Counted from the stretch's first letter, positions 1 through 37,248 are shown. The stretch is DNA of 64,000 bases from Kastovskya adunca ATA6-11-RM4 (GCA_019359445.1 JAHHHJ010000012.1:62001-126000); one strand, 5' to 3'. The notes: generated by a model not told the origin, from the sequence alone. Made by a program: numbers and translations.

Positions 1-2167
1 TACTTGCGGTCTCGGTGTAGTTCACTAAAGACTGATGTTGAATCATCACTCCCTTTGGCTGTCCTGTCGATCCTGACGTATAGATCCCATAAACCAGATT
101 CTCAGGCGTAGCGTTGTTGACAAGATTCTCTGGACTTTCCCGGTCAATTACATCCCAATCCGCATCCAAGCAAACGACCTGAGTTTTGTTTTCGGGAAGC
201 CATTCCCTCAACCGCTCTTGGGTTAACAACAACGAGAGCTGGGCATCCTTCAGTATGAAAGCCAGACGCTCTTTCGGATACGCTGGGTCTAGTGGCAGAT
301 AAGCCCCACCCGCTTTGAGAATTCCAACAATCCCGACCACCATCTCTATAGAGCGCTCTACACAGATGCCGACAAGTACCTCTGGCTTGACGCCCAACTT
401 TTGCAAGTGGTGTGCAATTTTGTTCGCCCGTTGATTCAGCTCCCGATAGCTGAGGTACTCGTCTTCAAATACCACTGCAATAGCATCGGGTGTCTGTTCT
501 ACCTGAGCTTCAAACAACTGATGGATGCACTGACCTTGAGAATAGTTAGCTTGGGTGTTATTCCACTCTACTAATAGCTGATGCTGCTCGGCTGGTGTTA
601 ATAACTGCAAGTCCTTTAGGCGTTGCTCAGGATTAGCCACCATCCCTTCTAGCAATGTTTGGAAATGCCCCAACATGCGGGTAATCGTGGCGGCATCAAA
701 GCGTCGGCGATCGTACCAAATATCCAATGACAGCTTTGCACCAATTCCTACTACCACAGTCAGGGGGTAGTTTATTGATTCCGCAAAGCGAAATTCGCGA
801 ATATCCAAGCTTTCACTTTGCTGCGCTAAGGAAGAGTCCACAGGGTAGTTTTCAAAAACCAAAATACTCTCGAATAACGGCATCCCCCGTGGCACATCAC
901 TCCAGGCTTGGACTTCTACTAAGGGGCTGTACTCATACTGTCGAGCCTCGATTTGTTGAGCTTGCAGTTTCTTTAGCCAAGGTAGAAGAAACTCCTCAGA
1001 AGGAACGCTTGTTCGCACTGGAAGGGTATTAATAAAAATACCCACCATATTCTCGACTCCCGCTAGGTCTGTCGGACGACCAGAAGAAGTCGCCCCAAAT
1101 AGGATGTCTTCCTCGCCACTGTAACGACTCAAGAGTAAAGCGAAGGCTCCTTGTACAAGCGTGTTTAGAGTTAGCTGATGCTGCTGTGCCAGAGTTTTTA
1201 GGGCAGAGGTTGTGGCTTCAGATAGCTGGATTTGCTGCTCATCTTGGTTTTCTTGTCCGCTAGGGAGTGTTGTCAAACCCGGAGATCCCCCTAAATCCCC
1301 CTTAAAAAGGGGGACTTTGACTGAATTCTCCCCCCTTGTTAAGGGGGGCTGGGGGGGATCTGTATTTAATGGAGAAGTTTCAAAAGATGCCCTATAGGAG
1401 CCTCCAGAATTTCGGTCTACGTTGACTAAATTCTCCCCCCTTAATAAGGGGGGCTGGGGGGGATCTGCATTTAACGGGGAAGTTTCAAAACACGCCCCCT
1501 GAGAGCCTTCAGAATTTCGGTCTACGTTGAAGGAAGTCGGTGTAGTAAAACCTTTGAGATCACGCCGCCAGAAAGCCTCGGCTTGAGACAAATCTTGCTG
1601 CTGCAACCAAGCAATATAATTTGCGAAAGGTGTGGTGGGGAGTAGGGGCAAATTTTGACCTTGTTGCAGTGCGGAGTAAGCGTCAAAAACGTCTTTGAAA
1701 ACTACGGCTGTTGACCACCCATCTAGAATCAGATGGTGTTTGCTCCAGATAAATTTGTACTGATCCTCAGCCAGTTGAATCAGCGTCAAACGCATTAACG
1801 GTGGTTTGTTGATGTCAAAATCCCGTTGGCGATCGCCTTTTAGAAAATTCCTCAGCAACTCTTGTTGCTCAGTTGCCGAAACTCCCCGCCAGTCATACTG
1901 CTCCCAAGGTAAGTTTACAGACCGATAAACGACCTGAAAGGGTTGATCGCGACGTTCCCAATGAAAAGAGGTACGCAAGACTGGATGCCGCTCTATTACT
2001 AACTGCCAAGCTTGTTTAAGCACTGAGACATTCAGGGAGTTGCTAAAGGTGCAACTAATCTGAGCAACATATACTCCTGAGTTCGGTGCATAGAGGGTGT
2101 GGAAGAGTATGCCCTGCTGCATCGGCGACAGGGGATAAATGTCTTCAATATTCTTTCTATTGTCCAT
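1..2167 (-). CDS. Non-ribosomal peptide synthetase, C-A (partial, runs off the left edge)
   Basis: This is the last visible protein of the NRPS operon; only its first ~722 residues are in the window. It starts at the ATG at 2165-2167, 21 bp after the stop of the upstream NRPS. A condensation domain comes first (PLSPMQQGILFHTLY near residue 15; active motif HHLILDG near residue 145), then the start of an adenylation domain up to its phosphate-binding core (TSGSTGQPKG), just before the window edge. The C domain looks like the type that follows an epimerase (DCL), which agrees with the E domain ending the preceding protein. The A-domain specificity residues lie off the window, so the amino acid is unknown. 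Between C-domain cores, at residues ~213-295, an in-frame block of repeat-derived sequence includes two tandem 35-residue copies. I checked that this block stays open. Downstream domains, including any thioesterase, cannot be seen. Confidence 0.93.
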   Translation of the reverse strand, partial: MDNRKNIEDIYPLSPMQQGILFHTLYAPNSGVYVAQISCTFSNSLNVSVLKQAWQLVIERHPVLRTSFHWERRDQPFQVVYRSVNLPWEQYDWRGVSATEQQELLRNFLKGDRQRDFDINKPPLMRLTLIQLAEDQYKFIWSKHHLILDGWSTAVVFKDVFDAYSALQQGQNLPLLPTTPFANYIAWLQQQDLSQAEAFWRRDLKGFTTPTSFNVDRNSEGSQGACFETSPLNADPPQPPLLRGENLVNVDRNSGGSYRASFETSPLNTDPPQPPLTRGENSVKVPLFKGDLGGSPGLTTLPSGQENQDEQQIQLSEATTSALKTLAQQHQLTLNTLVQGAFALLLSRYSGEEDILFGATSSGRPTDLAGVENMVGIFINTLPVRTSVPSEEFLLPWLKKLQAQQIEARQYEYSPLVEVQAWSDVPRGMPLFESILVFENYPVDSSLAQQSESLDIREFRFAESINYPLTVVVGIGAKLSLDIWYDRRRFDAATITRMLGHFQTLLEGMVANPEQRLKDLQLLTPAEQHQLLVEWNNTQANYSQGQCIHQLFEAQVEQTPDAIAVVFEDEYLSYRELNQRANKIAHHLQKLGVKPEVLVGICVERSIEMVVGIVGILKAGGAYLPLDPAYPKERLAFILKDAQLSLLLTQERLREWLPENKTQVVCLDADWDVIDRESPENLVNNATPENLVYGIYTSGSTGQPKGVMIQHQSLVNYTETAS
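1263..1528 (-). repeat. In-frame palindromic repeats with a 105-bp tandem duplication
   Basis: Within the C domain of the partial NRPS, positions 1319-1423 and 1424-1528 are two near-identical 105-bp direct copies. Each encodes 35 residues beginning NVDRNS and containing DPPQPPL-RGEN. A third, shorter GC-rich palindrome (about 1283-1318) follows and encodes VPLFKGDLGGSPG. Each copy contains the CCCCCC...TTA-TAA...GGGGGG palindrome also found between genes elsewhere in the window. The reading frame is kept through all copies. Confidence 0.85.
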
Positions 2168-2188
2168 TTAGAGTCACCCAGGAATTAA

Positions 2189-5100
2189 CTAGAGTTCTGC
2201 AAGCAGTTCGTCCAGCTCTTTCGAGCTAAACTGCATTTGTGGGAAGTCTGAGGGCGTGTAGCCTCCAGCTTCGGGAGACTGACAGTGAGTAATTAGGTCG
2301 CGCAACGCTTCCACAAAACTCTGAGCCAGACTCTCAATCGTGCTGCGGCGATGAATGTTCTCGCTGTAATTCCAATCCAGTCGGAGTTGACCGGAAACAA
2401 TTAACCCGTTAATCACCAGCAACCGATTCCGGCTTCCCTTTGAGGTGCGTTCTTGTCCACAAGACTCTTCAGCCGGGGCAAATAGTGAGGATTCTGATAA
2501 AAGTTGGTCAAACTGCCCCAAATAGTTAAATTTCACTTCCGGCTGCGGCAACGCTTCTATTTGCTCCCGCAATTCCCGGTTTCCGTTGAGATAACGCAGC
2601 ACACCATAACCGATGCCTCGATTTGGAAGACCCCGCAGTTGCTCTTTAACTGCTTTCAGCGCCTCGACTGGGTTGGATGCGTCCCCAATATCCAACAGCA
2701 CGGGAAAATGGGTGGTAAACCAGCCAACGGTACGGGATAGGTTTACATCGTTGAAAATATCTTCTCGTCCGTGACCTTCCAGTTCCACCAGCAGGGACGG
2801 CTCACCTGTCCACTGTGCAAATGATTGTGCGAGTGCCGTCATCAATACATCGTTGATTTGGGTGCGATAGGTGGCTGGAACTTCCTGGAGTAGAGCTTGA
2901 GTTTCTTCGACACTGAGTTCTACTGATACCGTGCGCTCTGATGCCACTGTGTTGTCGCAATACTGCAAGAGAGACCTCTCCCCCAGCTCCTCTCCTGCAA
3001 GAAGAGGGGAGTCCGACTCCCCTCTTCCCTCGTAGGGAAGGGGGGCTGGGGGGGTTAGGTCAGCCTTATCTAAGTAGTATTGAGTGTTGTCGCCCCCTAC
3101 ATAGTCCACTGGCAAGCGGGGAACTGATGTTCGAGCTTGAGCCAACCAATAGTCCTGCTCTTGCTGAACAGCTTCTGAATGCGCGTAATCCCTCAGTCTT
3201 TCCGCCCAATGCTTGAACGAAGTCGTTTTGGATGGTAGGGCAATTGCTTCACCTCGACTTAGCTGTTCGTAAGCAGTTTGGAAGTCTTCCAGCAAAATTC
3301 GCCAGGAGACGCCATCAACGACTAAGTGGTGAATGACAATCAGCAGGCGTTGAGAATCACCCAGATTAAACAGAGCCACCCGCATCAGCGGTTCTTCTGA
3401 TAGGTTTAGGCTCGTTTGGAGTTCAGTTGCTGCTTCCTCGATGGCTGCTTTTTGCTGCTCTGGCGACAGTACCGACAAATCCAGGTATTGAAATGGCACC
3501 ATCCCGTTGAAATCAGCATTAATCTGTTGCCAACCGGATTCAGCCTCAACAAACCGTAGGCGCAGAGCGTCGTGGTGTTCTAGCGATCGCTGTAAAGCCT
3601 TCTGCAATAGCATTGGGTCAAGCGCTTGTTTTACTTGCAGCAAAACCGCTTGGTTCCAGTGGTGGGAGTCAGGCTGATTTTGTTCAAAAAACCAGTGCTG
3701 AATCGGGGTGAGGGGGACTGAACCCGTTACCCGCCCTTGTTCCGCCATCACACCCTGACTCAGGTTAGCCACGGCGGCGAGTTCAGCAATCGTCTGGTTT
3801 TCAAAAAGTTGCTTGGGAGCGATTTCTATGCAAACTTGATGCGCTCTAGCAACGATTTGAATGCTAATAATGGAATCGCCGCCTAATTCAAAGAAGTTGT
3901 CGTGAATGCCTACTCGCTCGACCTTCAGGACTTCCGCCCAGAGGTTTGCTAGTTTTTCCTCTGTAGGAGTGCGCGGTGGTACATAAGCCTCTTTTAACTC
4001 AGGTCGGGACGCATCTGGTGCTGGCAGCATTTGGCGATTGACTTTGCCATTGGGTGTCAACGGTAGAGCCTTGAGCTGCACGAAAAACGACGGCACCATA
4101 TATTCTGGCAACCACTCCAAGAGGAAGCTTCGCAACTCACTGCTAGTCGGAGCCGATTTGTGTTTGGGTACTACATAAGCCACTAGGCGCTTGTTGTCTG
4201 GTTCATCTTCCTGCACTATGACGGCGGTTTCACTGACGCCAGGGTGTTTCAACAAGGCGGCTTCAATCTCTCCTAGCTCAATGCGGAAGCCGTGTATCTT
4301 GACTTGGCGATCAATTCGTCCGAGAAACTCAAGGGTTCCGTCGGGTAAGTAGCGGGCTAAGTCCCCGGTTTTGTAAACCCGTCCAGAAATAAAAGGATTA
4401 TTGATGAATTTCTCGGCAGTCAGTTCTGGTCGATGCAGATAGCCGCGTGCTAACCCTGCACCGCCAATATGCAGTTCTCCTGGTACACCAATGGGAACGG
4501 GTTGCCCATTAGAGTCGAGCAGATAGATTTGGGTGTTGGGAATGGGACGACCAATGGGAACTGTGCTGCTTTGACCTAACCCCCCCAACCCCCCTTCCCT
4601 GCAAGGGCAGGGGGGAGTCCGGCTCCCCTCTCCTGCAAGGAGAGGGGCTGGGGGAGAGGTATTCCTTGCACTATTGGGAACAGTGGAAGCAAATTTGGCA
4701 ACGGATTTGGTAGTGGATAAATTGTTAGTGATTGCATAGGTAAGAACGCCGACGGTGGCTTCGGTTGGCCCGTAGTGGTTGAGAATTTGGCATTCTGGTG
4801 CTAACTGCTGAATCTGTCTGATTAAGTCCCAACTACAAGCTTCACCTCCGAGTACTAGTCGCTGGCGAGGTAGAAGTTGCTGGGGATTTTCACCAGTCAG
4901 TAGGGCTTTCAGGTGAGATGGAACAATCTTGATGCAGTCGATGGGATGGCGCTGGAAGTAGTCGGCTAGGGCTTGCGGATCAGAAGCGCGATCGCTACAT
5001 ACTATATGCAAACAACCACCACTACATAGAGCCGGGAAGATAACTGTATTACCCAAATCAGCGGCAAAGGTGGACACCGTTGCATAACTAGCACCAGTAG

Positions 5101-7027
5101 GAAGATTGATGGTTTCCTGGATGCTGTATAGATAGTTGAGAAGTTGCTGATGCTCAATAGCAACGCCTTTAGGGACACCAGTAGAACCAGAGGTGTAAAT
5201 GGCATAGACTAAGTTCTCTGGTTTAACGTCGCTAGTTGGATTGCCACTGCATTCTCGCTCTATCTTCTCCCAGTCTGTATCCAGGCAAATAATAGTTCTT
5301 TGTTCTTGGTCATTCGTCAAAAGTTCTTTGCTCTTAACCAATGACTCTTGACTAATCAGCAATGATTGAGCCTCTTGCAACCGCAGAGCAATGCCAGAAG
5401 GGGGTAAGGCGGGGTCTAAGGGAAGGTATGCTCCCCCAGCTTTGAGAATGCCGAGCAATCCGACAATCAGGTCGAGGGAACGTTCTACAAATAGCCCCAC
5501 CAACACATCCGGCTTCACTCCCAATTGTTGTAGGTAATGAGCTAGTTTGTTCGCACGAGAGTTGAGTTCGCGGTAGGTCAGTTGCTGCTCTTCAAAGACA
5601 ACAGCAATGTTATCCGGTGTCCTGGCGGCTTGGTCTTCAAATAGTTTGTGAATGCAGGCTTCTTTGGGATAATCAACAGCCGTGTGGTTGAATTCAATTA
5701 ATAGCTGCTGTCGTTCGCGATCGCTTAAAATATTTAAATTAGACGCCGCCGCTTCTGGCTTACTGATAATGCTTTCTAGTAAGGTCGAAAACCGTTCTGC
5801 CAGACGTTTAATATCATCTTCTAAAAAATAATTACTATCATATTTAAATGCAGCTACGATTGAGTCATCGTTACGATCACAGGAAAGTTTTACCTTAAAT
5901 CTCTCAAGACAGATGTAGTGTTTGGAGAGCGAAAAATGGACATTAGACTTTAAGGATTGAGATGACCATTGTTCATACTCGAAGCCAAAAGGTAAAAAGG
6001 CTACATCTATACAATGCTCCAGCTCAGTAAAGTACTCTTGCCATTCGTAAGCCTCATGAACCGATTGATTAACTTGAGCGAGCAACTCACTGAATTTAGA
6101 TTCAGCCTCGAAGTGGCAAGTTAAGGGTAAATGCTTGGCGAATAATCCTAGCGATCGCTCTAGCTCTTCATAGGGACGACCATCGAATGCCGTACCGATG
6201 ATAATATCTTGCTGTCCAGTCAGCCGCCACAGTAGAACCTGCCAACATGTTAGTAAGACTGTAGAAACCGAAGTTTCACATTTTTGAGCTATTGCTTCAA
6301 TTTTGGCAACGACATCAGGCTCAACTTTACACTCAAGAGAATTGAATTCAAATTGAGCGGGAACATTACTCAGTTTGTTCTCAAAGGGTAGAGCTAAAGT
6401 TGCTAGGGCAGAAAAATCCTGTTTGCTCCAGTATTCTTTGCCAGCTAATCCATCCTCATCTTCAAGTAATTGATTCTGCCATTCGGAAAACTGAACGTAT
6501 TGCACGACTTCATCTTCATCCGATAGTTCCTCACCTTGAAGAGAAGCGGTATAAGACTGGCTAATTTCCACCACCAGATTTTTGAGTGTTTTACCATCCG
6601 CACAAATTGCTGGCAGGCTGATGAGCAAAATATGCTTTTGGGCTGACAGTATCAGCAGGTAAAAACGTAATAAGGTTTGTTCAAAATTTAGCTCTTGCTG
6701 TCGTTCTTCCTGAAGGATTTCCTCAATTTTGAATTCCTGTTGTTTGGAATCTAAACCGCTCAGATTGATATCACGACAGCAGAGGATACTGCTATCCGCA
6801 ACGACTTGAAGCGGCGCTTTAATTCCTGGCTTGCGCTGAAAGGTTGTCCGCAGAATTTCATGCCGATTGATGACATTTTGCAGAGCTATCTTCAAAACTT
6901 CTGGATTAAGATTGCCTTCGATGAGGATAGCACCTTGAGTCTGATAAGCAAGACTATCTCGTTGCAACGACCATAGCCGCTTTTGTTGAGGAGAAAGTTG
7001 AAATCCCTCAATTATTTGAACTGCCAT
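2189..7027 (-). CDS. NRPS module: degenerate C ('interface'-like) - A (Asp-like) - PCP - E
   Basis: A 1612-residue module. The N-terminal condensation-like domain (~1-430) has LPAICADG near residue 141 where active C domains have HHxxxDG, so both histidines are missing. The A domain follows (TSGSTG ~616). Its pocket residues read K278, V299, G301, H322, V330, G331, the second half of the Asp code, but the A4 region is FAADLGNT and lacks the usual Asp235. A carrier domain (LGGDSI, Ser ~1051) and an epimerization domain (VIHHLVVDG ~1236) complete it. The upstream protein ends C-TauD, so I infer that its C domain forms the peptide bond while this degenerate domain docks the hydroxylase, giving D-beta-hydroxy-Asp. 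Repeats are inserted in frame at ~786-817 and ~1322-1351. GGAGA lies 8 nt before the ATG. A 125-bp gap separates it from the upstream gene, the longest gap inside this operon. Confidence 0.92.
2976..3059 (-). repeat. In-frame palindromic repeat inside the E domain
   Basis: Two adjacent GC-rich palindromes, in the pattern CCCCCAGC...GCAAG...GGGG and CCTCGTAGGGAAGGGGGGCTG, encode a low-complexity stretch ([22 protein letters not shown]) between epimerization-domain motifs. The same DNA pattern occurs at 4574-4660 and 22514-22605 and in spacers. Confidence 0.8.
4574..4660 (-). repeat. In-frame palindromic repeat inside the A domain
   Basis: A double GC-rich palindrome placed between A-domain cores A5 (HYGPTEA) and A6 (VPIGRPIPN). 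It encodes [12 protein letters not shown] and GGLGGLGQ-type residues and keeps the frame. It lies in a surface loop region of A domains, so it is probably tolerated. Confidence 0.8.
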
Positions 7028-17642: not shown

Positions 17643-17662
17643 TTTTGTTTACGATGCCTCGA

Positions 17663-24100: not shown

Positions 24101-25884
24101 TGTTTGATCTCGGCTGCGGCTTCAGTATCAGATTCACTAGGGTAGATTAGCGGTCGCAAATCCAGCCCTAAATAAGGTTTGAGCAACTCACAACAGCGAT
24201 CGACTTGCTCTTTAAACGTCGCCTCAGTCTGGTACAATTCTTTGCCCATATCCACATACTGAGTCCCCTGTCCGGGAAACATGAAGGCGATAGGGCGATC
24301 GCACGGTTCTTGAACGTGGGTAAAAACTCGTTGAGCATCTCGCGTCTCTAAGGCATTAACGGCATCCTCAATATCTCGGCATACCAACACTCGACGATAA
24401 TTAAACTCTCTACGCCCCACTTGCAGAGTATGAGCAACATCCGCCAAGTTCAGTTCGGGATGCTGCGTGAGGTGTTGTAAAAGATTCGTTGTCGCCGTTT
24501 CCAACGCTGACTCAGTTTTGGCAGAAAGTACCAACAACTGCCAAGGACGAGAAGGTGTCGAAGCGGGTAACGCTGGGGCTTCTTCAAGAATTACATGAGC
24601 ATTAGTTCCACCCATCCCCAAGGAACTCACACCCGCGCGGCGAGGAGTCAGCCCCGCTTTCCAGGGGGAAAGTTTTGTATTGACATAAAAAGGACTGTTG
24701 GCAAAATCAATCTGGGGGTTGGGTTGCTCGAAATTCAGCGTCGGCGGTAGGGATTGGTGTTTGAGGGCGAGAACCGTTTTAATCAGTCCCGCGATACCTG
24801 CGGCTGCATCTAAATGACCGATATTGGTTTTAACCGAACCGATTGCACAGCCAGCCTTTTTTTCAGTATTGGCGCGAAAAACCTGGGAGAGTGCTGCAAT
24901 TTCAATCGGATCGCCTAAGGCGGTTCCAGTACCGTGCGCCTCGATATAGTTGATTGTTTCCGGTTCAACCTCCGCAAACATGATCGCTTCGGCGATCGCT
25001 TCGGCTTGAGCATCCACACTCGGCGCTGTATACCCAACTTTCCGAGAACCATCATTGTTGATGGCTGAACCTTTAATCACAGCCTGAATGCAATCACCAT
25101 CGGCGATCGCCTCCGATAACCGCTTTAAAACCACAACCCCCAAACCATTGCCAATCGTTGTTCCCTGAGCCTGGGAATCAAAGGCGCGACAATGACCATC
25201 AGGCGATAACGCTCCCCCTTCCTGGTACAAATAGCCCGTCTTGTGCGGGACTCGAATTGAAACCCCACCCGCCAACGCCATATCACACTGATAATTCAGC
25301 AAACTTTGGCAGGCGATCGCCGTCGCCACCAATGACGTAGAGCAAGCGCTCTGAACTGTAAAACTCGCTCCCTTGAGATTTAATTTGTAAGCAACGCGGG
25401 TTGTGAGGAAATCTTTATCATTACCAATGAGCGTTTGGTAGCATTGCGCCGAACCCAGGCGATCGCGGTTTAAATCAAAGGAATAATAGTTACTCAGGCT
25501 TGCCCCAGCGTAAACTCCAATCCGACTTTCACATCGTTGGGAATCATAACCAGCACTTTCCAGGGCTTCCCAAGCACACTCTAAAAATAGGCGGTGTTGC
25601 GGGTCGGTTACTTCAGCTTCTCTAGGATTAATGTCAAAGAATGAAGCATCAAATAACTCAATGTCTTCTAATACTGCACCTGCTTTTACATAATTAGATT
25701 CTCTTAACACCGCTGAATCTATTCCCGCAGCCATTAACTCTTCATCCGTGAAGCAGGAAATGGACTCCACTCCATCGCGCAAATTCTGCCAAAATTCCTC
25801 AAGATTTTTGGCTCCAGGGAAACGTCCTGCCATGCCAATGATGGCTATTCCTTCTGTTGAATCGTATGCTTCTGCACTATCCAT
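21154..25884 (-). CDS. Type I polyketide synthase: KS - AT (malonyl) - KR - ACP
   Basis: A 1576-residue PKS module that extends the Thr-bound chain by two carbons. KS active Cys is in SACSTSL (~180), with EAHGTGT and KTNIGH histidines following. The AT has GHSIGEY (~628) and HAFHSP (~724), the signature of malonyl-CoA selection. The KR has the nucleotide loop GGLGGIG (~1193) and catalytic Tyr in YAGAN (~1350), so the beta-keto group is likely reduced to a hydroxyl. The ACP has LGGDSL (~1508). Extending threonine with malonate and KR would give a gamma-amino-beta-hydroxy unit. I chose the ATG at 25884, preceded by GAAGGGA, over an upstream TTG at 25911. A repeat is inserted ahead of the KR nucleotide site (~1094-1124). 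Confidence 0.93.
22514..22605 (-). repeat. In-frame palindromic repeat in the PKS, before the KR core
   Basis: Two adjacent GC-rich palindromes encode [13 protein letters not shown] and [12 protein letters not shown] in the non-catalytic half of the ketoreductase region. The DNA and encoded residues closely match those at 4574-4660, although one host is a PKS and the other an NRPS. Confidence 0.8.
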
Positions 25885-25914
25885 TAGCTTTTCCCTTCTC
25901 ACTACACTCAATCT

Positions 25915-28900: not shown

Positions 28901-31467
28901 AAGCGCAGCAGTTTGACACGCCATAACGGTTCCCTCGTCAGGTCGAAAGGCTGTTGGGCTTCCTCCGTTGCAAGGCGCTGTACTTCGGACTTGTGCCAAT
29001 ATTGTTCGCTTAACCTCTCCCCCAACCCCTCTCCTGCAAGGAGAGGGGAGAAATGCTCCCCACAGTATCGGGACTCACGCTCCAATTCCAGAAGTTGCTG
29101 ACAATCCACTACCTGTAAAGCCAGCGTCACACAAGGAGCGATCGCCTGAACGGGTTGACCTTCTGCAATGCTGAAGCTAGTCCGCAATGCTTCGTGTCGC
29201 CGCACAATTTCGTTAAGGCTGCGCTCCAGCACCGTCACATCCAGCGAACCCTTGAGGTGAATTCCCACGGAAATGTTATAGGCGGGGTTGCCTTTCTCCA
29301 ACTGGTCGATGAACCACAATCGTTGCTGGGCGAAAGAAAGGGGATGAACGTCAGAGGTGTTCTGAACTCGGTCGATGGATACTGATACAGGCTTCCAATC
29401 CGCCGATGTTACTTGGTTGAGTACTTGTGTTGTCAGTTGAGCAATGCTAATACCTTCAAAGAAATCAGCGATCGCTACCTCAACCCCAAAGTCAGCCTCA
29501 ATGCGATTTTTTAGCTCGAAGACCATTAAGGAATCAAGACCAAAGCGGCTTAAAGGTGACTTGCCATCTATTGCGGACGGCGTTGCTCTCAGTACCTGCG
29601 CTACTTGCTCTTGAAGATAAGACTCTAAAAGCTGTTGGCGTTCTTCTGGTTCTACTACCAGTAAGGTTTCGCGGGTGAGGTTCCTCTCGTTGTTTACAAC
29701 AATAGAGGTATCTAGAATACTGCTACCAATTACATCCAGTTCGCCTGCTAAAAACTTAGCTCGACAAGCACGACGTTGAATCTTACCACTAGAGGTTTTG
29801 GGAATACTCCCAGGCTTAATTAAAACCACCCCATAAACTTGCACCTCATGTTCTTCAGACACTGTCTGACGAATGGCGGCGATGACTTCCTCAACATCCG
29901 GTTTGGCGCGAAACTCCAACTCTTGCACCACCACCAGCCGTTCTTCACCCTCAACCTCTACGGAAAAGGCGGCGCTACTGCCCAATCGCAATGCTGAATG
30001 GCTACGTTCTGAGGTCAGTTCAATATCCTGCGGGTAAAGGTTACGACCACGAATAATAATTAAATCCTTAACTCGACCCGTGACGAACAGTTCCCCATCC
30101 TGCAAAAAGCCTAAGTCTCCAGTTCGCAAAAAAGGCTTTTTCTCCGCAGTTGTATCCGTATCTAATGGGTAAGCTTGAAACGTCTGCTCTGTCTCTTCAG
30201 GACGATGCCAATATCCTTGCCCCACACTCGAACCGGATACCCAGATTTCACCCACCTCATCAGGTTGGCAACGGGTTAATGTTTCGGGATCAGCAATAAC
30301 AATTTGCTGCTCTGGTATGCTTTTGCCACAGCTAACAAAGGTGCAAACATCTTCGTTATCAGCATCAGCCGCAATAATCTGATGGCGTTCTAGAGCATCT
30401 ACTCGGACAGTTTTGATAGTCGGCGGAGCGCTTTTGAGACTGCCGGAAACCATCAAGGTTGCCTCTGCCATCCCGTAACAAGGGTAGAAGGCTGACGGAC
30501 GGAAACCGCAATCTGCAAATTTTGCCCAAAATCGCTCCAGAGTATCCTGCCGAATCGGTTCCGCACCGTTAAAAGCGACGTCCCAACTGCTTAAGTCCAG
30601 CGTCTGGAGTTGCTCTGGTGTAATTTTATGAATGCACAGTTCATAAGCAAAATTGGGAGCGCCGCTTGTCGTGCCTTTGTACTGGGAAATCGCCTGCAAC
30701 CAGCGGTAAGGACGCTGGAGAAATGCGGCTGGAGGCATGAAGATGCAAGGGAAACCCCCATACAGCGGTTGCAGTATGCCGCCGATGAGTCCCATGTCAT
30801 GGTACGCGGGCAGCCACGAAATAAATTTACTGCTGGGTGAATGTTCCATGATGCAGTAAGTCATGGCGGCGTTGTGGAGCAAATTGCCGTGACTCAGCAT
30901 TACCCCTTTGGGCGTTCCTGTAGATCCGGAAGTGTATTGCAGAAACGCTAATGTATCTTTTTTTATAAAGGGCTGTTGCCAGTTCTCTTCTATCCCACTC
31001 GCTAGGTTATCGGTAGTCAGCCACTGCAAATTCCCCAAGTCAGCTTTTTCAGTCAGGAGGGATTGCACCTTGGAGTGAACTGCTGTTGTTGTGAGGGCGA
31101 TCGCTGCCTGTGCATCTTTGGCGATCGCTTGGATTCTGGGCGTGTTGCGTTGGTTGCGCGGTGGATAAGCTGGAACCGCGACGACTCCAGCATACAAACA
31201 CCCGAAAAACGCCGCCAGATAATCCAGTCCTGGGGGATAAAGCAACAATGCACGTTCGCCACTTAAACCTAAAGCCTGAAGTTGAGAGGCGATCGCGCGA
31301 CTGCGCCGATCCAATTCTCGATAGGTGAGTTGTTCGCCTTCTATTTCTCCATCCGGCAAAAAGGTAAAAGCCAGTTGTTCGGGCTGCTGTAAAGTCCTTT
31401 GGCGTAAAAGATCCACCCAAGTCGAATAGAGGAGGCTTTCTGGAAACGCATTAAAAGATTGAGGCAT
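25915..31467 (-). CDS. Hybrid loading protein: FAAL - ACP - C - A (Thr) - PCP
   Basis: An 1850-residue protein that starts the assembly line. A fatty acyl-AMP ligase (~1-585; TSGSTGTPKG ~178, SWLPAYHDMG, GRNLYPQDIE) activates a free fatty acid and loads the adjacent ACP (GLDSLM ~643). A C domain (~690-1120; HHIIGDE ~871) joins the acyl chain to the amino acid chosen by the A domain (TSGSTG ~1377). Pocket residues D-F-W-N-I-G-M-V-H match the threonine code. The last domain is a PCP (LGGHSL ~1772) with a charged, Lys-rich tail that may dock to the PKS. It is the first gene of the operon, 3.4 kb upstream of nothing else on this strand, with a ~130-nt leader after the candidate promoter. Two repeat insertions lie at ~799-819 and ~1328-1361. 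Confidence 0.94.
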   Translation of the reverse strand: MPQSFNAFPESLLYSTWVDLLRQRTLQQPEQLAFTFLPDGEIEGEQLTYRELDRRSRAIASQLQALGLSGERALLLYPPGLDYLAAFFGCLYAGVVAVPAYPPRNQRNTPRIQAIAKDAQAAIALTTTAVHSKVQSLLTEKADLGNLQWLTTDNLASGIEENWQQPFIKKDTLAFLQYTSGSTGTPKGVMLSHGNLLHNAAMTYCIMEHSPSSKFISWLPAYHDMGLIGGILQPLYGGFPCIFMPPAAFLQRPYRWLQAISQYKGTTSGAPNFAYELCIHKITPEQLQTLDLSSWDVAFNGAEPIRQDTLERFWAKFADCGFRPSAFYPCYGMAEATLMVSGSLKSAPPTIKTVRVDALERHQIIAADADNEDVCTFVSCGKSIPEQQIVIADPETLTRCQPDEVGEIWVSGSSVGQGYWHRPEETEQTFQAYPLDTDTTAEKKPFLRTGDLGFLQDGELFVTGRVKDLIIIRGRNLYPQDIELTSERSHSALRLGSSAAFSVEVEGEERLVVVQELEFRAKPDVEEVIAAIRQTVSEEHEVQVYGVVLIKPGSIPKTSSGKIQRRACRAKFLAGELDVIGSSILDTSIVVNNERNLTRETLLVVEPEERQQLLESYLQEQVAQVLRATPSAIDGKSPLSRFGLDSLMVFELKNRIEADFGVEVAIADFFEGISIAQLTTQVLNQVTSADWKPVSVSIDRVQNTSDVHPLSFAQQRLWFIDQLEKGNPAYNISVGIHLKGSLDVTVLERSLNEIVRRHEALRTSFSIAEGQPVQAIAPCVTLALQVVDCQQLLELERESRYCGEHFSPLLAGEGLGERLSEQYWHKSEVQRLATEEAQQPFDLTREPLWRVKLLRLGEQEHVLLLTLHHIIGDEWSVEVFIREMAILYKAFLASSPLPLPDLPVQYTDFAYWQRQWLQGELLETQLSYWKQQLNGVPSLQLPTDRPRPAVQTYRGARQSLELPKSLTDAIATLSRQEGVTPFMVLLAAFQTFLYRYTGQDDIPVGSPIANRNRSELNSLIGFFVNTLVLRTDLGDNPSFRELLSRVRQVALGAYTHQDLPFDQLVEALRPVRDASYTPLFQVSFALRKSPQLEEIPGLALSLVNVETLTAQFDLSLFVDITEQGLIASFEYNTDLFEAATIARMLGHFQNLLLGIVSNPNQRLSDLPLLTASERHQLLVAWNDTEAEYPADLCIHQLFEAQVERTPDAIALVFENQQLTYRELNNRANQLAHYLKQLGVKPDVLVGLCLERSLEMVVGILGILKAGGAYVPLDPAYPKDRLAFMLSDRQVPVLLTQKRLLETLPEHAAKVVCLDTDWESIRVHSDSSNSPPQPPLARGEYEEKRFSLGDRGEYEEGESQEGVESQNPSSLAYVIYTSGSTGQPKGVLVSHANVVRLFAATQPWYHFNEQDVWTLFHSYAFDFSVWEIWGALLYGGRLVVVPYWISRSPESFYELLCKEQVTVLNQTPSAFRQLIRAEEIGVNSDLSLRLVIFGGEALEVQSLKPWFERHGDQVPQLVNMYGITETTVHVTYRPLTMSDLSGMSSVIGRPIPDLQVYVLDRHHQPVPIGVPGELYIGGAGLACGYLNRPELTTERFIRNPFDDKVDARLYKSGDLVRYLPNGDLEYLGRIDQQVKIRGFRIELGEIEAVLGQHPAVQDVVVMAREDIPGVLHLVAYVVPNPKQMPNISELRQFLQARLPDYMIPASFVLLEALPLTSNGKVDRRGLPAPESHRPDLQEVYQAPRSEVERAIATVWQSVLHLEKVGIHDNFFDLGGHSLLMIQVNNKLQDVFNRDLSIVELFQNPTISSLAQSLSKKSEESSAFDPVQDRVQKQLEAINKRKKLLTKQKNTH
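27383..27483 (-). repeat. In-frame palindromic repeat between A2 and A3 cores
   Basis: Several repeat units encode NSPPQPPLARGEYEEKR and FSLGDRGEYEEGESQEG. The position and residues correspond to the insertion at 11015-11099 in the Gly-activating domain. Confidence 0.8.
29011..29050 (-). repeat. In-frame palindromic repeat inside the C domain
   Basis: A palindrome of the CTCTCC...GCAAG...GGAGAG type encodes [17 protein letters not shown] within the loop preceding the HHxxxDG-region helix of the loading C domain. Confidence 0.78.
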
Positions 31468-31567
31468 ATTATTCGGACTCGATTCGATGCGAACCTGACG
31501 TTTTGAATCTGGCGAGTTTAGTTAAACCCAATTCCGTCAAAGCGTTTGCTGTTTTTTACAGCCTTAT

Positions 31568-31582
31568 TGATATCTATTTTCG
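31568..31582 (-). promoter_or_regulatory. Possible weak Fur box for the NRPS operon
   Basis: TGATATCTATTTTCG matches 10 of 14 fixed positions of the 7-1-7 Fur consensus (TGATAATnATTATCA). It lies 16-30 bp downstream of the candidate -10 hexamer of the minus-strand promoter. Alone this is weak; its position and the better site on the other side support it. Confidence 0.35.
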
Positions 31583-31597
31583 ATTAGACTTCGCTAA

Positions 31598-31625
31598 CAT
31601 ATAGCAAATCCTTGAATTTCGTCAA
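31598..31625 (-). promoter_or_regulatory. Candidate promoter of the NRPS/PKS operon
   Basis: On the minus strand TTGACG (31620-31625) and TATATG (31598-31603) are separated by 16 bp, a fair match to a housekeeping sigma promoter. Transcription would start near 31590 and leave a leader of ~125 nt before the FAAL gene. Confidence 0.5.
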
Positions 31626-31631
31626 GGATTT
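31606..31631. promoter_or_regulatory. Perfect 10-bp inverted repeat over the NRPS promoter
   Basis: AAATCCTTGA (31606-31615) and TCAAGGATTT (31622-31631) are perfect inverted arms around a 6-bp centre. The repeat covers the -35 box and most of the spacer of the minus-strand promoter, so it is well placed as an operator. It does not resemble a Fur box. Confidence 0.45.
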
Positions 31632-31785
31632 ATCCAAAGTTTTATTGGCTATACTTTCAATTACGATCGAGTCGTTGCCGCTAAAAGCTAGCATTGGCAA
31701 AGCCTTTGCCCTCTAAAAACTTGCTCCACAGATGAGAGTTCTCAACAACGAGGGAATTTACTCTAAAATTTTTTAGCTTTCTCTC

Positions 31786-31815
31786 TTGACCTTAGTGATA
31801 CTGACGTTTTATTCT
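31786..31815 (+). promoter_or_regulatory. Candidate promoter of the siderophore-uptake operon
   Basis: TTGACC (31786-31791) and TATTCT (31810-31815) with an 18-bp spacer. The expected transcription start is near 31822, about 80 nt before the first plus-strand gene. Confidence 0.5.
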
Positions 31816-31828
31816 TAGCGGGTGCTAT

Positions 31829-31843
31829 TGAGAATAATTACTA
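31829..31843 (+). promoter_or_regulatory. Fur-box-like operator of the siderophore-uptake operon
   Basis: TGAGAATAATTACTA matches 11 of 14 fixed positions of the 7-1-7 Fur consensus TGATAATnATTATCA. It sits immediately after the expected transcription start of the plus-strand promoter, where bound Fur would block transcription when iron is plentiful. The downstream genes are a TonB receptor and a ferric-siderophore-binding protein, which agrees with this reading. Confidence 0.6.
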
Positions 31844-31900
31844 AATTTCGTGGAGCGCAATCGATAGCCTGATTGCCTCTACTGTGGGTGAGGAAAAAAG

Positions 31901-32095
31901 ATGGAACGAAAGCAACTACTCTTGCGCCTGTTACTTGCAGGTTCAGGGGGTGTTTTGGCAGGGCTGCTCATTTTGACTGAGGTTGTACAAGCGCTGGGTG
32001 TGCAGCGTCATGACTTCAGCACAAACCTTGAGATGACTTTAGAAAGAGATGATGCCGCATCTGAAGGGTTGGCGGTGAGTGAGGTGAAGAAATGA
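31901..32095 (+). CDS. Small 64-residue protein with one hydrophobic segment
   Basis: The start is ATG after a GAGGAAAAAAG ribosome site, and the stop overlaps the receptor start (ATGA), so it is probably translated together with the receptor. The N-terminus is basic (MERKQLLLR), followed by a hydrophobic stretch (residues ~7-32: LLLAGSGGVLAGLLILTE) and a polar, acidic tail. This could be a single-pass membrane peptide or an uncleaved signal anchor. I recognise no family. Being first behind the Fur-box-like site, it is probably iron-regulated and connected with siderophore uptake. Confidence 0.65.
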   Translation: MERKQLLLRLLLAGSGGVLAGLLILTEVVQALGVQRHDFSTNLEMTLERDDAASEGLAVSEVKK

Positions 32096-34845
32096 AACTG
32101 CATCTACCATTTTTAATTGTTGCCCTGCTCAGTATTGGCATACCGCCAGCAGTAGCAACGCCTAGGAGCGTTTCCGTCAACCCAGTCTCAGCGACAGCAT
32201 TACCAGATGGGGAGATGGGAAGAGGGGGAAATGAACCTGTGAAGAGAAGTTCTCCTCAGGCTTCCAGTTCGCAATCCCCCATTACGGCAATTCCTCATCT
32301 TAGTGAGATAGAATTTCCCCTTACCCGTGCTGAGGGGCTATGGCAGTCACAATCAGCCAATTCATTACAAGTTGCTCAGAGCGAGTCCGGTGTTCTACAA
32401 GTAACGGGTGTACAGGTTAACCCCACAGACATCGGCTTTGAAGTCATTTTAGAAACCCCAGATGGAGAACTTCTGGACGCCGAAACTCGGAGTGAGGGCA
32501 ATACCTTAATCGTTGATATCCCCAATGCGGCGCTAGTGCTTGTAGAGGGTGACGAGTTTCGTGAAGACAACCCAGCAGAAGGAATTAGTTCCGTTGTTGT
32601 GACTCAGCTCGATGGGAATAATATCCAAGTCGCTGTGACTGGAGAAACGGGAACGCCGACGGTGGAGGTGGTTCCGAGTCAGAGCGGTTTAGCTCTAAGT
32701 TTGGCTCCAGCGCTCTTAGATGGGGAAGAGGTTATCGAGGAAGAGGTTATCGGGGAAGACACAGAAGAAATTGAAGAAGTTGAACTTGTGGTAACGGCTA
32801 CGCGCACAGCACAAGAGCTACCTGAGGTGCCGCGCTCGGTGACGGTGATTACCCGCGAGGACATCGAGGGACAAAGTAGCGTCACCAGGGACGTACAAGA
32901 CATTCTGGCTCAAACGGTTCCTGGCTATGGCCCCCCCACTCAGAGGGCTTTCGGCGATACGACGGCTTCTTTGCGGGGTCGTGCTCCCCTGGTTTTGATT
33001 GACGGCGTCCCTCAGAACACGAATTCTGGTAATGCGGGGAGACAGCTAAGAACCATTGACCCCGCTTCTATTGAGCGGATTGAGGTGGTGCGTGGCCCCT
33101 CCGCTCTCTACGGTCAAGGAGCAACTGGCGGTGTGATCAACATCATTACACGCCGACCTGATGAGCAAAGGCTGACGACTACGGCAGAAGTCGGTGTAAC
33201 GGCTGCATTAGGAAAGTTGCAAGGTGAAAGTTTTGGTAACTACCAAGAGTATGGACTTTCGCTCAATGAAGGCGATGTTGACTTGGTTTTTAATTTATCG
33301 CGGGAGGATACGGGAGCAACGTTTGATGCTGAAGGCGATCGCCTTGCCATCGTTCAGGGAATAGATGAAAGTGAAACCTTTAATATCCTGGGCAAACTGG
33401 GGTGGGACATTAGCGAGCAACAACGCCTGCAACTAAGTGCCAATTTCTACCGTAGCGAACGCAACACCAATGCGATCTCAGATCCGATCGTTGACGACAT
33501 TCCTGGCATCCAAAAACCCCGCGCCATCGTCTTTGAAGAGGGGATCGACTTTATTGGTGTCTCCCCGCAAAGCGATCGCAATACTGTCCTCAATCTCGAT
33601 TACACCAACGAGAATGTCTTCGGCAGTCAGCTTGGCTTGCAAACCTACTACCGAGATAACGTAGTTCGGACTGACGTCCGCGATCGACGAAACCGCGATC
33701 AGGAGATTACTCAAGGGATTGATGAAGCGGAAAATTGGGGAGCCAGGTTGCAAATTGAGACCCCCTTTAACTCAGAGGAAACAATCAGTCTGCTTTGGGG
33801 AGTTGACTACGCCAACGAGAATAACTCTTTGCTCCGAAATCTTTTCGATCCTGAATCCTTCGATGCCAGTGGGGGGCGAGTATACCGCAAAATCGGAGAG
33901 GTGACAGTTGTTCCTCCCTATGACGTTAAAAACCTAGGTTTGTTTGCCCAACTGCAATGGGAGGTGAGCGATCGCTTGTCTCTCAGTAGCGGAACTCGTT
34001 ACGACCGCTTTGATATTACCGTTCCTAGCTACACCACTCTTTTTGGTGACCAAGCTGAAGGCGGTAAACGCAACTTTGATGATATTGTCTTCAATCTCGG
34101 TGCTGTCTATGAAGTCACTGATGAAGTGAGCTTGTATACCAACTATGCTCAGGGCTTTTCAGTGCCTAATCTGGTCGATGTTCTGTTTGCTCCATCTGCC
34201 GGATTCAACTTTGAAACCAGTGTGGGAGATCTGCAACCGCAACAGGTTAACAGTTACGAAATCGGGGTACGCGGCAACTGGTCTCAGGTGCAGGTGTCTT
34301 TAGCTGGTTTCTACAACCAATCTGATTTGGGTTCAGCCATCGTCCCCACCGATGATTTCTTTGACTTCGTCCGCGCTCCAGAGCGAATTTACGGCATAGA
34401 AACAACCCTTGATTGGCAAGCAGGTGGGGGCTTTTCCCTCGGTGGTACCTTGGGTTGGTCATCAGGGAAAGTCGATCTTCCGGATGATGATCAAGGGTTC
34501 TTAGCGTTGGGAAGCGATCGCATCCAACCCTTGAAGCTGACGGCTTATGTGGAGCATCAAACGACTCCAGGTTGGCGAAATCGCATCCAGGCTTTGTTAG
34601 TGGGTAGTCGCGATCGCGGTTTTGAGGACGGACTCGATCTTGCCCCCATCGAAAGCTACCTAGTTGTAGACTACATCGGCAGCATTCAGCTTGGCCCTGG
34701 GGCGCTGCAAATCGGCATCCGGAATCTGCTCAACAACCAGTATTTCCAAGCCTACGACCAATCACTACGGAGTGACGGCTTGGAGAGTTTTGTCAGTCCA
34801 GCCAGTGGCAGAACCATCAGTGTCGGCTACCGTGTGAGTTGGTGA
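32092..34845 (+). CDS. TonB-dependent siderophore receptor with N-terminal AMIN domain
   Basis: A 917-residue outer-membrane receptor. A signal peptide (residues 1-23, ending AVATP) is followed by a variable spacer, an AMIN domain (~100-200; VTGVQVNPTDIGFEVILETP), a TonB-box-like segment (ELVVTATRTAQ ~242), the plug domain (VPRSVTVITREDI; IERIEVVRGPSALYGQGATGG ~330-355 in part) and a 22-strand-type barrel ending in the aromatic terminus VGYRVSW. AMIN-plus-plug architecture is characteristic of cyanobacterial siderophore receptors, where AMIN may bind the cell wall. It is the second gene of the uptake operon, divergent from the NRPS operon, so its likely ligand is the ferric form of the compound made next door. 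Confidence 0.94.
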   Translation: MKLHLPFLIVALLSIGIPPAVATPRSVSVNPVSATALPDGEMGRGGNEPVKRSSPQASSSQSPITAIPHLSEIEFPLTRAEGLWQSQSANSLQVAQSESGVLQVTGVQVNPTDIGFEVILETPDGELLDAETRSEGNTLIVDIPNAALVLVEGDEFREDNPAEGISSVVVTQLDGNNIQVAVTGETGTPTVEVVPSQSGLALSLAPALLDGEEVIEEEVIGEDTEEIEEVELVVTATRTAQELPEVPRSVTVITREDIEGQSSVTRDVQDILAQTVPGYGPPTQRAFGDTTASLRGRAPLVLIDGVPQNTNSGNAGRQLRTIDPASIERIEVVRGPSALYGQGATGGVINIITRRPDEQRLTTTAEVGVTAALGKLQGESFGNYQEYGLSLNEGDVDLVFNLSREDTGATFDAEGDRLAIVQGIDESETFNILGKLGWDISEQQRLQLSANFYRSERNTNAISDPIVDDIPGIQKPRAIVFEEGIDFIGVSPQSDRNTVLNLDYTNENVFGSQLGLQTYYRDNVVRTDVRDRRNRDQEITQGIDEAENWGARLQIETPFNSEETISLLWGVDYANENNSLLRNLFDPESFDASGGRVYRKIGEVTVVPPYDVKNLGLFAQLQWEVSDRLSLSSGTRYDRFDITVPSYTTLFGDQAEGGKRNFDDIVFNLGAVYEVTDEVSLYTNYAQGFSVPNLVDVLFAPSAGFNFETSVGDLQPQQVNSYEIGVRGNWSQVQVSLAGFYNQSDLGSAIVPTDDFFDFVRAPERIYGIETTLDWQAGGGFSLGGTLGWSSGKVDLPDDDQGFLALGSDRIQPLKLTAYVEHQTTPGWRNRIQALLVGSRDRGFEDGLDLAPIESYLVVDYIGSIQLGPGALQIGIRNLLNNQYFQAYDQSLRSDGLESFVSPASGRTISVGYRVSW

Positions 34846-34849
34846 TTCA

Positions 34850-35926
34850 ATGATCAAGATGGTTTACCGAAAGTCTTTAATCCGTCACAGGAAGAAGTGG
34901 AGCCACGCTATCCAAATTTGTCTACTGGCGCTGTTGAGCTTTGGACTAGTTTGTGCTTGCAGTGGTAGTTTACCTCAAGATTCTGCTGCTCCTGGCTCAC
35001 CGTTATCTGAGTCGGTGCAGGTTGTATCTCCTGCAAAGACAGCAAGTGAACCAGACTCCCCCTGCCGAATGGTCAAGCACGCTCTGGGTGAAACCTGCGT
35101 TCCCGCTCACCCCCAGCGAGTTGTGGCGCTAGTTAGCAGTGCAGTCGTCGATCTTTTATCTTTGGGTGTTCAGCCTGTTGGTGCCGTATCAAATGTGCCC
35201 TCATTCGTACTCGACCAACTTAAGGATGTGGAAATTCTCGGCTACAGCGAACAAGTAAACCTTGAGACGATTCTGCTTTTGAAACCTGACCTAATTCTGG
35301 CTCAAAAATGGAACGCCCAGCCAGTTTACGACAAGCTCTCGAAAATTGCGCCTACGGTTGTTAGCGATTACCGCATTGGTGAATGGAAACAATCGTTTGC
35401 GCTACATGCCGAGGCGCTAGGGATGACTGATAAAGCAAATCAATTGATGGCTGAATATGACCAGCGTATAGAACGCTTCCAAGCTCAGATGGGAGATCAA
35501 CTGAAGCAAACCGACGTTTCACTGATCGGTGTTTATCCGGAGGGCATTTTTATCTACTTCCAGAATTCCTTTGGCGGCACAATTTTGCAAGACATCGGTT
35601 TACCTCGCCCACCTGTTCAAATTCGGGAAAAGAGCAGACGGATTGGGGAGCGTATTAGCAAGGAACTGATGCCCTATGCCGATGGGGATGTCATATTCGC
35701 GTGGAGTTACAGTGATACTCTAAAAACCCTGGGAGCAGCACAAGAGAAGCTAGATCGGCTCAAGTCTGATCCCCTGTGGTTGAAGTTGAACGCCGTTGAG
35801 CAAGACAGGGTTTATCAGGTGGGAGACCATTGGACTATTGGTAGCCCCCTGACAGCTAACCTCGTCCTCGACGATCTGTTTAAGTACCTGATCGAGGAAC
35901 GGAAATTGTCGAGCCAGACGCAATGA
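34850..35926 (+). CDS. Ferric-siderophore-binding periplasmic lipoprotein (FecB/FhuD-like)
   Basis: A 358-residue solute-binding protein of the Peripla_BP_2 class that carries iron-siderophore complexes from the receptor to an inner-membrane ABC transporter. The N-terminus has basic residues, a hydrophobic stretch and a lipobox-like LVCAC/SGS near residue 36, so it is probably a lipoprotein. Family features are HPQRVVALVSSAVVDLLSLG (~83 on) and LLLKPDLILAQ (~143). A second ATG at 34859 is possible. The gene begins 5 bp after the receptor stop and overlaps the MFS gene by 4 bp. The permease and ATPase partners are not in this window. Confidence 0.9.
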   Translation: MIKMVYRKSLIRHRKKWSHAIQICLLALLSFGLVCACSGSLPQDSAAPGSPLSESVQVVSPAKTASEPDSPCRMVKHALGETCVPAHPQRVVALVSSAVVDLLSLGVQPVGAVSNVPSFVLDQLKDVEILGYSEQVNLETILLLKPDLILAQKWNAQPVYDKLSKIAPTVVSDYRIGEWKQSFALHAEALGMTDKANQLMAEYDQRIERFQAQMGDQLKQTDVSLIGVYPEGIFIYFQNSFGGTILQDIGLPRPPVQIREKSRRIGERISKELMPYADGDVIFAWSYSDTLKTLGAAQEKLDRLKSDPLWLKLNAVEQDRVYQVGDHWTIGSPLTANLVLDDLFKYLIEERKLSSQTQ

Positions 35927-37248
35927 GGATAGTAAAGCAGCTTGCTAGTATGCGTACCTTTTTGATCATCTGGAGTGGTCAGACTGCCTCCCTCGTCGGC
36001 AGCTATATGACTACCTTTGCCCTGACCCTCTGGGCTTGGGAACTCACAGGACAAGCCACCGCCTTAGCCTTGGTTTATTTCTTCAACCGTCTATCAAGCG
36101 TTTTGATTTCCCCCGTGGCTGGGATCATTGTCGATCGCTGGAACCGTAAATTACTGCTGGTCGCCAGTGATGCGGTAGCGGGTCTTTCTACACTGATCAT
36201 CCTTTTGCTCTATCTGACTAACAACCTGCAAATTTGGCATATCTATATCACTAGCACCCTCAACGGTGCGTTTGGTTGCTTGCAGTTGCTCACCTACTCT
36301 GCCTCAGTCTCGCTGCTAGTTCCCAAGGAGCAATATGGGCGCGTCAGTAGCTTAGATTTTCTATCAAGTTACGGTGCTGATATTATTGCCCCGGCTTTGG
36401 CAGCGTCGTTCTACTATGTCATTGGTCTGAGGGGAATTCTGTGCATTGACTTGATGACGTTTGCGATCGCTGTTACCACACTACTCCTCGTACCCATTCC
36501 CCAACCTCCCCTCACGGCGACAGAACTGCAACCCCAAAAGAATATTTGGCAAGAACTATTCTTCGGCTTCCGCTACATCTTGGGGCGTCCTAGCCTGATG
36601 GCACTGGTTGTAGTGATGTCGTTGTTCCAGCTAGCTCATGACTTTGGCGCGGCTGTCTATTCACCACTAGTTCTTGTCCGCTCCGATAACAATGCCAGCG
36701 CTTTAGCAAGCGTGTCGATGGCAGCAGGCGTCGGGGGTGTGTTCGGAGCATCGCTCATGAGTACCTGGGGTGGGCCCAAGCGCCGCATGGACGGTGTGCT
36801 CATGAGCATGGTGGGGGCGGGTTTGAGCAAAACCGTATTTGGACTGGGTCAGAACCTGTCGGTTTGGGTTCCCGCTCAATTCTGTTCATCGTTTAATTTC
36901 CCCTTTCTCGGCAGTTGCTCTCAAGCTATTTTGATGAGCAAGGTAAAACCTGACTTGCAGGGGCGAGTGTTTGCTGCCAATTCCATGAGCGTGATGGTGA
37001 CTTCACCCATCGGCTACTTGCTCGGAGCACCTCTGGCGGATTACATCCTCGAACCCGCCATGAAACCGGGAGGCAGTCTCGCCCCTGTGTTTGGCGGGAT
37101 ATTCGGCACAGGGGCAGGTGCAGGGATGGCACTCCTGTATGTGTCCTGTGCTATCTGCATGTTGCTCATTGGCTTGGCAGGATATGCTTTCCCAATATTG
37201 CGTAATGTCGAGAAGGTAATGCCTGATCACGATATAGCGATTAGCTAG
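35923..37248 (+). CDS. MFS transporter, EntS-like, probable siderophore exporter
   Basis: A 441-residue integral membrane protein with about 11-12 hydrophobic segments. It starts with FLIIWSGQTASLVGSYMTTFAL and has the MFS loop GIIVDRWNRKLLL (~66-78), typical of the MFS_3/EntS group that exports siderophores and some drugs. It overlaps the binding-protein stop (ATGA), so it is in the uptake operon. Because NRPS products must leave the cell and no other exporter is visible, export of the siderophore is the best reading. Re-entry of ferric complex through the inner membrane is a less likely alternative. Confidence 0.87.
   Translation: MRIVKQLASMRTFLIIWSGQTASLVGSYMTTFALTLWAWELTGQATALALVYFFNRLSSVLISPVAGIIVDRWNRKLLLVASDAVAGLSTLIILLLYLTNNLQIWHIYITSTLNGAFGCLQLLTYSASVSLLVPKEQYGRVSSLDFLSSYGADIIAPALAASFYYVIGLRGILCIDLMTFAIAVTTLLLVPIPQPPLTATELQPQKNIWQELFFGFRYILGRPSLMALVVVMSLFQLAHDFGAAVYSPLVLVRSDNNASALASVSMAAGVGGVFGASLMSTWGGPKRRMDGVLMSMVGAGLSKTVFGLGQNLSVWVPAQFCSSFNFPFLGSCSQAILMSKVKPDLQGRVFAANSMSVMVTSPIGYLLGAPLADYILEPAMKPGGSLAPVFGGIFGTGAGAGMALLYVSCAICMLLIGLAGYAFPILRNVEKVMPDHDIAIS

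Follow-up and report, generated by a model that had tools for sequence, protein, structure and literature searches.

A predicted beta-hydroxyaspartate siderophore gene cluster of the cyanochelin class in Kastovskya adunca, with a linked secreted acylase and a relocated adenylation core

A stretch of 64,000 nucleotides (hereafter the window) of the Kastovskya adunca ATA6-11-RM4 genome (GCA_019359445.1; 5.09 Mb, 37 contigs), i.e., bases 62001–126000 of contig C34 (JAHHHJ010000012.1), carries in its left half collinear polyketide synthase (PKS) and nonribosomal peptide synthetase (NRPS) genes adjoining a siderophore transport cassette. We hold with considerable confidence that this cluster, working by the scheme set out below, makes, exports and re-imports a beta-hydroxyaspartate (beta-OH-Asp) lipopeptide siderophore of the cyanochelin class. 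Its genes, domains, motifs, specificity codes, synteny and co-occurrence are read directly from the sequences; the product, its iron binding, its amine end, the substrate of its acylase and the cluster's iron regulation are predictions. Few cyanobacterial siderophores are known, and those that contain beta-OH-Asp, being photolabile, influence how iron is shared out in a community. The class itself is already known; new here are a start unit particular to the cluster together with a predicted amine end, a conserved linked acylase and a relocated core of an adenylation (A) domain, the last two being the points of specialist interest.

The original prediction of a cyanochelin-type siderophore cluster is supported by the two aspartate hydroxylases. 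Compared with the characterised pair of the cyanochelin B cluster, the TauD domain fused in gene g5 shares 71% identity with its fused counterpart, and the g8 TauD shares 58% with the stand-alone one. These cyanobacterial-type hydroxylases are paired with Asp modules, and the line is a PKS/NRPS hybrid with a FAAL fatty acyl start (g1, g2). In cyanochelin B two threo beta-OH-Asp residues were established by NMR and Marfey analysis, and cyanochelins are induced by iron starvation (PMC12628792).

The minus strand of the window's left half holds six megasynthase genes in full and the beginning of another (g7), as long intact reading frames with domain E-values far below chance. The cluster is cut by the window's left edge, and its remainder was found on the same contig, left of position 1, within a contig stretch designated L006 (L006 coordinate = window coordinate + 16000). 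Reading this sequence, as had been proposed beforehand, gave the rest of g7, then g8, g9 and g10, followed on the opposite strand by genes for an ABC ATPase, two FecCD permeases and one protein each of MORN and TonB-like type. Symplocastrum torsivum CPER-KK1 (contig JAHHIF010000002.1) is the nearest relative that was found, and DNA synteny with it sets the right limit of the cluster at position 40877 and the left one 18.1 kb before window position 1 (~59 kb in all). The originally proposed bounds (1–37248) located the core correctly but were too narrow, by ~18 kb leftward and, rightward, up to the acylase gene end. All the parts that had been named (FAAL loading, PKS module, heterocyclization with Cys, Ser with epimerization, Gly, TauD, Asp with epimerization, TonB receptor, binding protein and MFS) were located at the expected places by domain searches and A-domain codes.

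The assembly line begins with g1 (25915–31467), encoding FAAL, acyl carrier protein (ACP), condensation (C), A(Thr) and thiolation (T) domains (Pfam/NCBIfam; code DFWNIGMVH; all substrate assignments follow general knowledge of the specificity code). FAAL would load a fatty acid and the Thr module would form N-acyl-Thr. The g2 product (21154–25911; Pfam, motifs in the translation) contains ketosynthase (KS), acyltransferase (AT; malonyl type, HAFH), ketoreductase (KR) and ACP domains, with KS, AT and KR motifs that appear intact; one malonyl extension followed by ketoreduction would yield an N-acyl-4-amino-3,5-dihydroxyhexanoyl chain. A TubC_N domain, a heterocyclization (Cy) domain bearing DxxxxDxxS, a Cys-type A domain (DLYNFGIVW) and a T domain follow in g3 (17663–21157; Pfam), which is predicted to add Cys and close a thiazoline. 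The g3 protein shares 53% identity with the Cy-A counterpart of cyanochelin B but is far shorter; as that counterpart carries a C-methyltransferase (PMC12628792), the thiazoline should be unmethylated. A Thr-C2-thiazoline start, as originally proposed, is thus borne out by the domains and codes of g1–g3.

Downstream, also on the minus strand, g4 (12909–17642; C-A(Ser)-T and an epimerization (E) domain; DVWHISLID) and g5 (7153–12912; C-A(Gly)-T, an active C and the fused beta-hydroxylase; DILQLGLIW) would add D-Ser and Gly. They are followed by g6 (2189–7027), with a His-less, C-like interface domain ahead of A(Asp)-T-E (DLTKVGHVG), and by g7 (1655 aa; 1–2167, its start only, extending left to L006:13200), of the order C-A(basic)-T-C (DVEDIGSIG). 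Beyond it lie g8, a stand-alone TauD (L006:12073–13167), g9 (L006:5705–11965; interface-A(Asp)-T-E and a terminal reductase domain, TD; DLTKIGHVG) and g10, a class III aminotransferase (L006:4137–5543). The carrier domains ahead of E (g4, g6, g9) have GGDS, those in g5 and g7 have GGHS, and HHxxxDG is present in all three E domains. At positions 239 and 278 the g7 code is acidic, which suits a basic side chain. The predicted chain is acyl-Thr-C2(OH)-thiazoline-D-Ser-Gly-D-betaOHAsp-(Lys/Orn)-D-betaOHAsp-CH2NH2. Its calculated [M+H]+ would be 768.319 (Lys) or 754.304 (Orn) for the des-acyl amine and 1006.549 or 992.533, respectively, with a C16:0 acyl group; the corresponding alcohols would be heavier by 0.984 Da, and each OH-Asp would account for a fragment loss of 131.02. 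The order proposed earlier (acyl-Thr-C2-thiazoline-D-Ser-Gly-D-OH-Asp) agrees with the A codes but ends too soon; the basic residue, the second hydroxylase, the second D-OH-Asp, the reductive release and the aminotransferase (g7–g10) lie beyond it.

The distribution of the start unit was surveyed through matches to g3 in 386 cyanobacterial genomes, ten neighbourhoods of which were opened. The combination of FAAL-C-A, KS-AT-KR and Cy-A(Cys) was found in none of these ten, and among the neighbourhoods opened the full Thr-ketide-thiazoline start was seen only in Kastovskya and Symplocastrum. Four of the ten (G224, G241, G053 and G041, of which G241 matches Tychonema sp. LEGE 06208) encode FAAL-C-A-T-Cy-A-T, i.e., an acyl-amino acid-thiazoline start associated with TauD modules in which no PKS module separates the first amino acid from Cys. 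An acylase is nearby in three of the four stretches read, and was found in the fourth genome by search. The start, which had been called distinctive, is so relative to cyanochelin B, but less so relative to these Tychonema-type clusters.

Both TauD enzymes keep the HNE motif intact, and an Asp-type A code follows each of them. The domains around them were compared in a motif survey of 77 loci collected with a stand-alone-TauD profile: of the C domains scored ahead of TauD, 90 of 91 kept the catalytic HH, and of the C-like domains behind it, 92 of 93 lacked this motif. The g6 and g9 proteins obey the same rule, with PAICADGKT and PALCADTVT in place of the HH motif. Most likely, therefore, it is the C domain lying upstream of TauD that forms the bond to OH-Asp, and the domain heading each Asp module serves as an interface domain, a concept reportedly due to Reitz et al. 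2019. The TauD enzyme docked at this His-less domain would hydroxylate each Asp. The C domains at the ends of g5 and g7 had also been considered as interface domains, for which the survey showed the opposite. Hence the Asp module described earlier stands as to its Asp code and E domain, but starts with an interface domain rather than an active C.

The chain would be released reductively. The C-terminus of g9 is a thioester reductase domain (TIGR01746) matching the reductase region of MxcG. In the biosynthesis of myxochelin B, release by the MxcG reductase is followed by amination by the MxcL aminotransferase; the peptide and ligands of that system differ from those predicted here, and the sequence comparison with it covered the MxcG reductase region. 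The preferred reading of the g9–g10 pair is analogous, i.e., the reductase domain would free an aldehyde, which the adjacent aminotransferase would convert to a primary amine. A stand-alone aminotransferase gene directly after TD was seen at 23 distinct loci including g10 (a number that is not a frequency, some of the loci having been found via the aminotransferase itself), and in a midpoint-rooted tree these TD-adjacent enzymes group apart from the aminotransferase (AMT) domains embedded in PKS modules. Since g10 has both its closest solved relative and its best match (E-value 1e-150) in the mycosubtilin synthase AMT domain, it might instead aminate the PKS module's beta-ketoacyl intermediate, in the manner of that synthase; the peptide would then end in an alcohol, like cyanochelin B. 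We regard this as quite unlikely, given the intact KR of the PKS module, the adjacency to TD here and at the 22 other loci, and the separate grouping, and accordingly disfavour a role of g10 in trans to the PKS. Cyanochelin B ends in ethanolamine (PMC12628792), and no aminotransferase gene adjoining TD was found at the cyanochelin B locus.

Nine loci (L050, L051, L055, L059, L064, L066, L084, L087 and L088) end in interface-A-T-TD with a His-like code (DSALIAEVW or DSASIAEVW) and have the same aminotransferase, which suggests beta-OH-His-derived ends in other cyanobacteria.

The genes of the cluster also comprise a complete siderophore transport set, conserved in Symplocastrum. Divergently from g1, across a promoter region at 31468–32091, lie on the plus strand genes for a TonB-dependent receptor (AMIN-plug-barrel; 32092–34845), a periplasmic binding protein of the ferric-siderophore type (34850–35926) and an MFS exporter (35923–37248), complemented by the ATPase, the two FecCD proteins and the TonB-like protein at the opposite end. 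The MFS pump would export the product, and the ferric complex would be imported by TonB, the receptor, the binding protein and the FecCD-ATPase system. The two beta-OH-Asp residues together with the thiazoline nitrogen and the ketide beta-hydroxyl would hold Fe(III) in a plausible hexadentate site, comparable to that of cyanochelin B; thiazoline and beta-OH-Asp, originally named as likely iron ligands, therefore remain the predicted ones. A metallophore mainly for another metal, or a lipopeptide of another role lying beside iron transport genes, seems very improbable. Copper is the preferred metal of fatuamide A, a PKS/NRPS metallophore whose cluster likewise has a TauD gene and comparable transporters; against this stand the two hard-donor OH-Asp residues of the predicted product, the full TonB, receptor, binding protein and FecCD set, and the kinship with the cyanochelins, which respond to iron starvation. 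A block of the divergent promoter at ~31824–31842 (GCTATTGAGAATAATTACT; GCTATTGAGAATAATTA) is conserved in Symplocastrum.

The comparison within the class was made with cyanochelin B. Its cluster (ccs) is located on plasmid 2 of Leptolyngbya sp. NIES-3755 and also in Myxacorys almedinensis A (PMC12628792). It shares with the Kastovskya cluster the FAAL start, a PKS step, the Cy-Cys module, Gly, a fused TauD followed by Asp, Ser, a stand-alone TauD followed by Asp-E, TD release and the divergent receptor-binding protein-MFS cassette. Confined to ccs are a carbon-linked tail (FAAL-KS), a C-methylated thiazoline, Phe and a Gly-TD end giving ethanolamine, with neither aminotransferase nor acylase, whereas Kastovskya has N-acyl-Thr, the unmethylated thiazoline, Lys/Orn, Asp-E-TD with an aminotransferase, and an acylase. 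The predicted product is thus not cyanochelin B itself (C-methylated thiazoline, Phe, Gly, OH-Asp, Ser, OH-Asp, ethanolamine), differing in order, start and end, and is probably, as had been suggested, an undescribed congener.

The gene set first recognized had left out the secreted acylase encoded at 38745–40877 (plus strand), an Ntn-hydrolase of the penicillin amidase superfamily. The N-terminus of this protein (710 aa) is signal-like, and Ser200 corresponds in alignments to residue 1 of mature acylase beta chains, features of a secreted, self-processing enzyme. In Symplocastrum its gene adjoins the MFS gene. In the 386 cyanobacterial genomes (which are not independent of each other) the acylase (E ≤ 1e-200) was present in 29, the hydroxylase (E ≤ 1e-80) in 25 and both in 21, i.e., the acylase occurred in 21/25 hydroxylase genomes and in 8/361 others (Fisher p = 2e-24); in 17 of the 21 genomes having both, the two lie within ~45 kb on one contig. 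Among the four hydroxylase genomes without an acylase match, G326, which matches M. almedinensis, is of the cyanochelin B type with a FAAL-KS fusion; in G024 a KS gene comes after the FAAL gene; G370, which matches PCC 7702, has its acylase gene split in two; and no FAAL was present in the stretch read of G372. An acylase was likewise not found on the NIES-3755 cyanochelin B plasmid, to which that search was confined; both cyanochelin B clusters, where the tail is not amide-linked, thus lack it. As a correlation, the acylase accompanies clusters that make N-acyl amides and is lacking from those with a carbon-linked tail.

The acylase belongs to the cluster, and we infer that it probably trims the N-acyl tail, so that the exported molecule may not keep it. 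The parallel with PvdQ in pyoverdine maturation is one of idea only, namely a secreted Ntn-hydrolase removing the N-acyl anchor from a siderophore precursor. The enzyme is not PvdQ (247.6 bits versus a family cut-off of 950), its closest solved relatives being glutaryl-7-ACA acylases. In the literature searched, seven papers mention siderophores, cyanobacteria, acylases and PvdQ jointly; by their titles, most deal with quorum quenching. This relationship, and the acylase-bearing genomes that lack the hydroxylase, would suit a mature siderophore that keeps its tail as cyanochelin B does, the acylase acting elsewhere (e.g., in signal quenching or in recycling of imported siderophore). Given the tight linkage and co-occurrence, the place beside MFS in Symplocastrum and the absence from clusters with carbon-linked tails, we consider that alternative rather unlikely. 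More broadly, and tentatively, at somewhat short of even confidence, we propose two maturation types: an N-acyl-amide start with a linked secreted acylase removing the tail after export, and a PKS-linked tail that is kept, the former being joined here with a Thr-ketide-thiazoline ligand, a C-terminal diamine from reductive amination of beta-OH-Asp, and A-core relocation. Whether the tail is kept or lost decides whether the molecule stays at the cell or diffuses away, and the acylase pattern makes tail fate a testable prediction from genomes. A second acylase gene of the same genome (C1:92616–94661) is 62% identical to that of the cluster.

Several points weigh against the scheme as a whole. 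Product, expression and iron binding are predicted from the genes. The best Fur-box match in the divergent promoter, 13/19, is not significant (shuffle p ~0.06–0.10), and most related promoters are likewise unremarkable. In g9, TD is directly preceded by E rather than T; the g3 code has no exact match among known Cys codes; the g7 residue may be either Lys or Orn. To these may be added the acylase's greater distance from PvdQ than from the glutaryl-7-ACA enzymes.

All ten biosynthetic genes recur in the Symplocastrum cluster, 77–94% identical, and together with the transport genes they keep their arrangement (acylase-MFS-binding protein-receptor, then, divergently, g1–g10, then ATPase-FecCD-FecCD); the literature searched contained no paper coupling Symplocastrum and siderophores. 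The A cores of two modules nevertheless differ, module 4 being Ser in Kastovskya and basic in Symplocastrum, and module 7 basic and Thr, respectively. Per 50-residue block, g4 and g7 are mostly 62–100% identical between the two strains, with 26–54% over ~250 residues of the A core, and the basic core of Kastovskya g7 is 90% identical to that of Symplocastrum g4. Judged by these identities, the same basic core occupies module 7 in one strain and module 4 in the other, which is a clear instance of A-core exchange within one cluster. Such exchange is a known and frequent mode of NRPS evolution (PMC8097286). In the orthologous pair, nature provides a clean example of how a specificity core can change its module within a single assembly line, useful for NRPS engineering.

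A family of G/C-rich palindromic repeats sits in frame within the megasynthase genes, encoding peptides such as DPPQPPLTRGEN. Copies are located at window positions 1277–1530, 2972–3058, 4571–4660, 10012–10050, 11017–11103, 22510–22605 and 29014–29049, and in g9. The sites are mostly empty in Symplocastrum, which carries its own insertions at other places, and the 105-bp repeat unit has ~30 partial copies genome-wide.

Between the MFS and acylase genes lies a gene for a beta-type carbonic anhydrase (37695–38426). No such gene lies at this place in Symplocastrum, and it falls in a gap of the synteny, so it looks like an insertion in the Kastovskya genome. Further NRPS genes of the same genome are located at C37:84649–96972, C6:4846–11314 and C16:279837–281789. 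Outside the cluster, intergenic tandem arrays of 7–8 bp units (AGCAGGGG, CTTCATC and similar) occupy window positions 49110–49346, 51027–51354 and 60669–60799.

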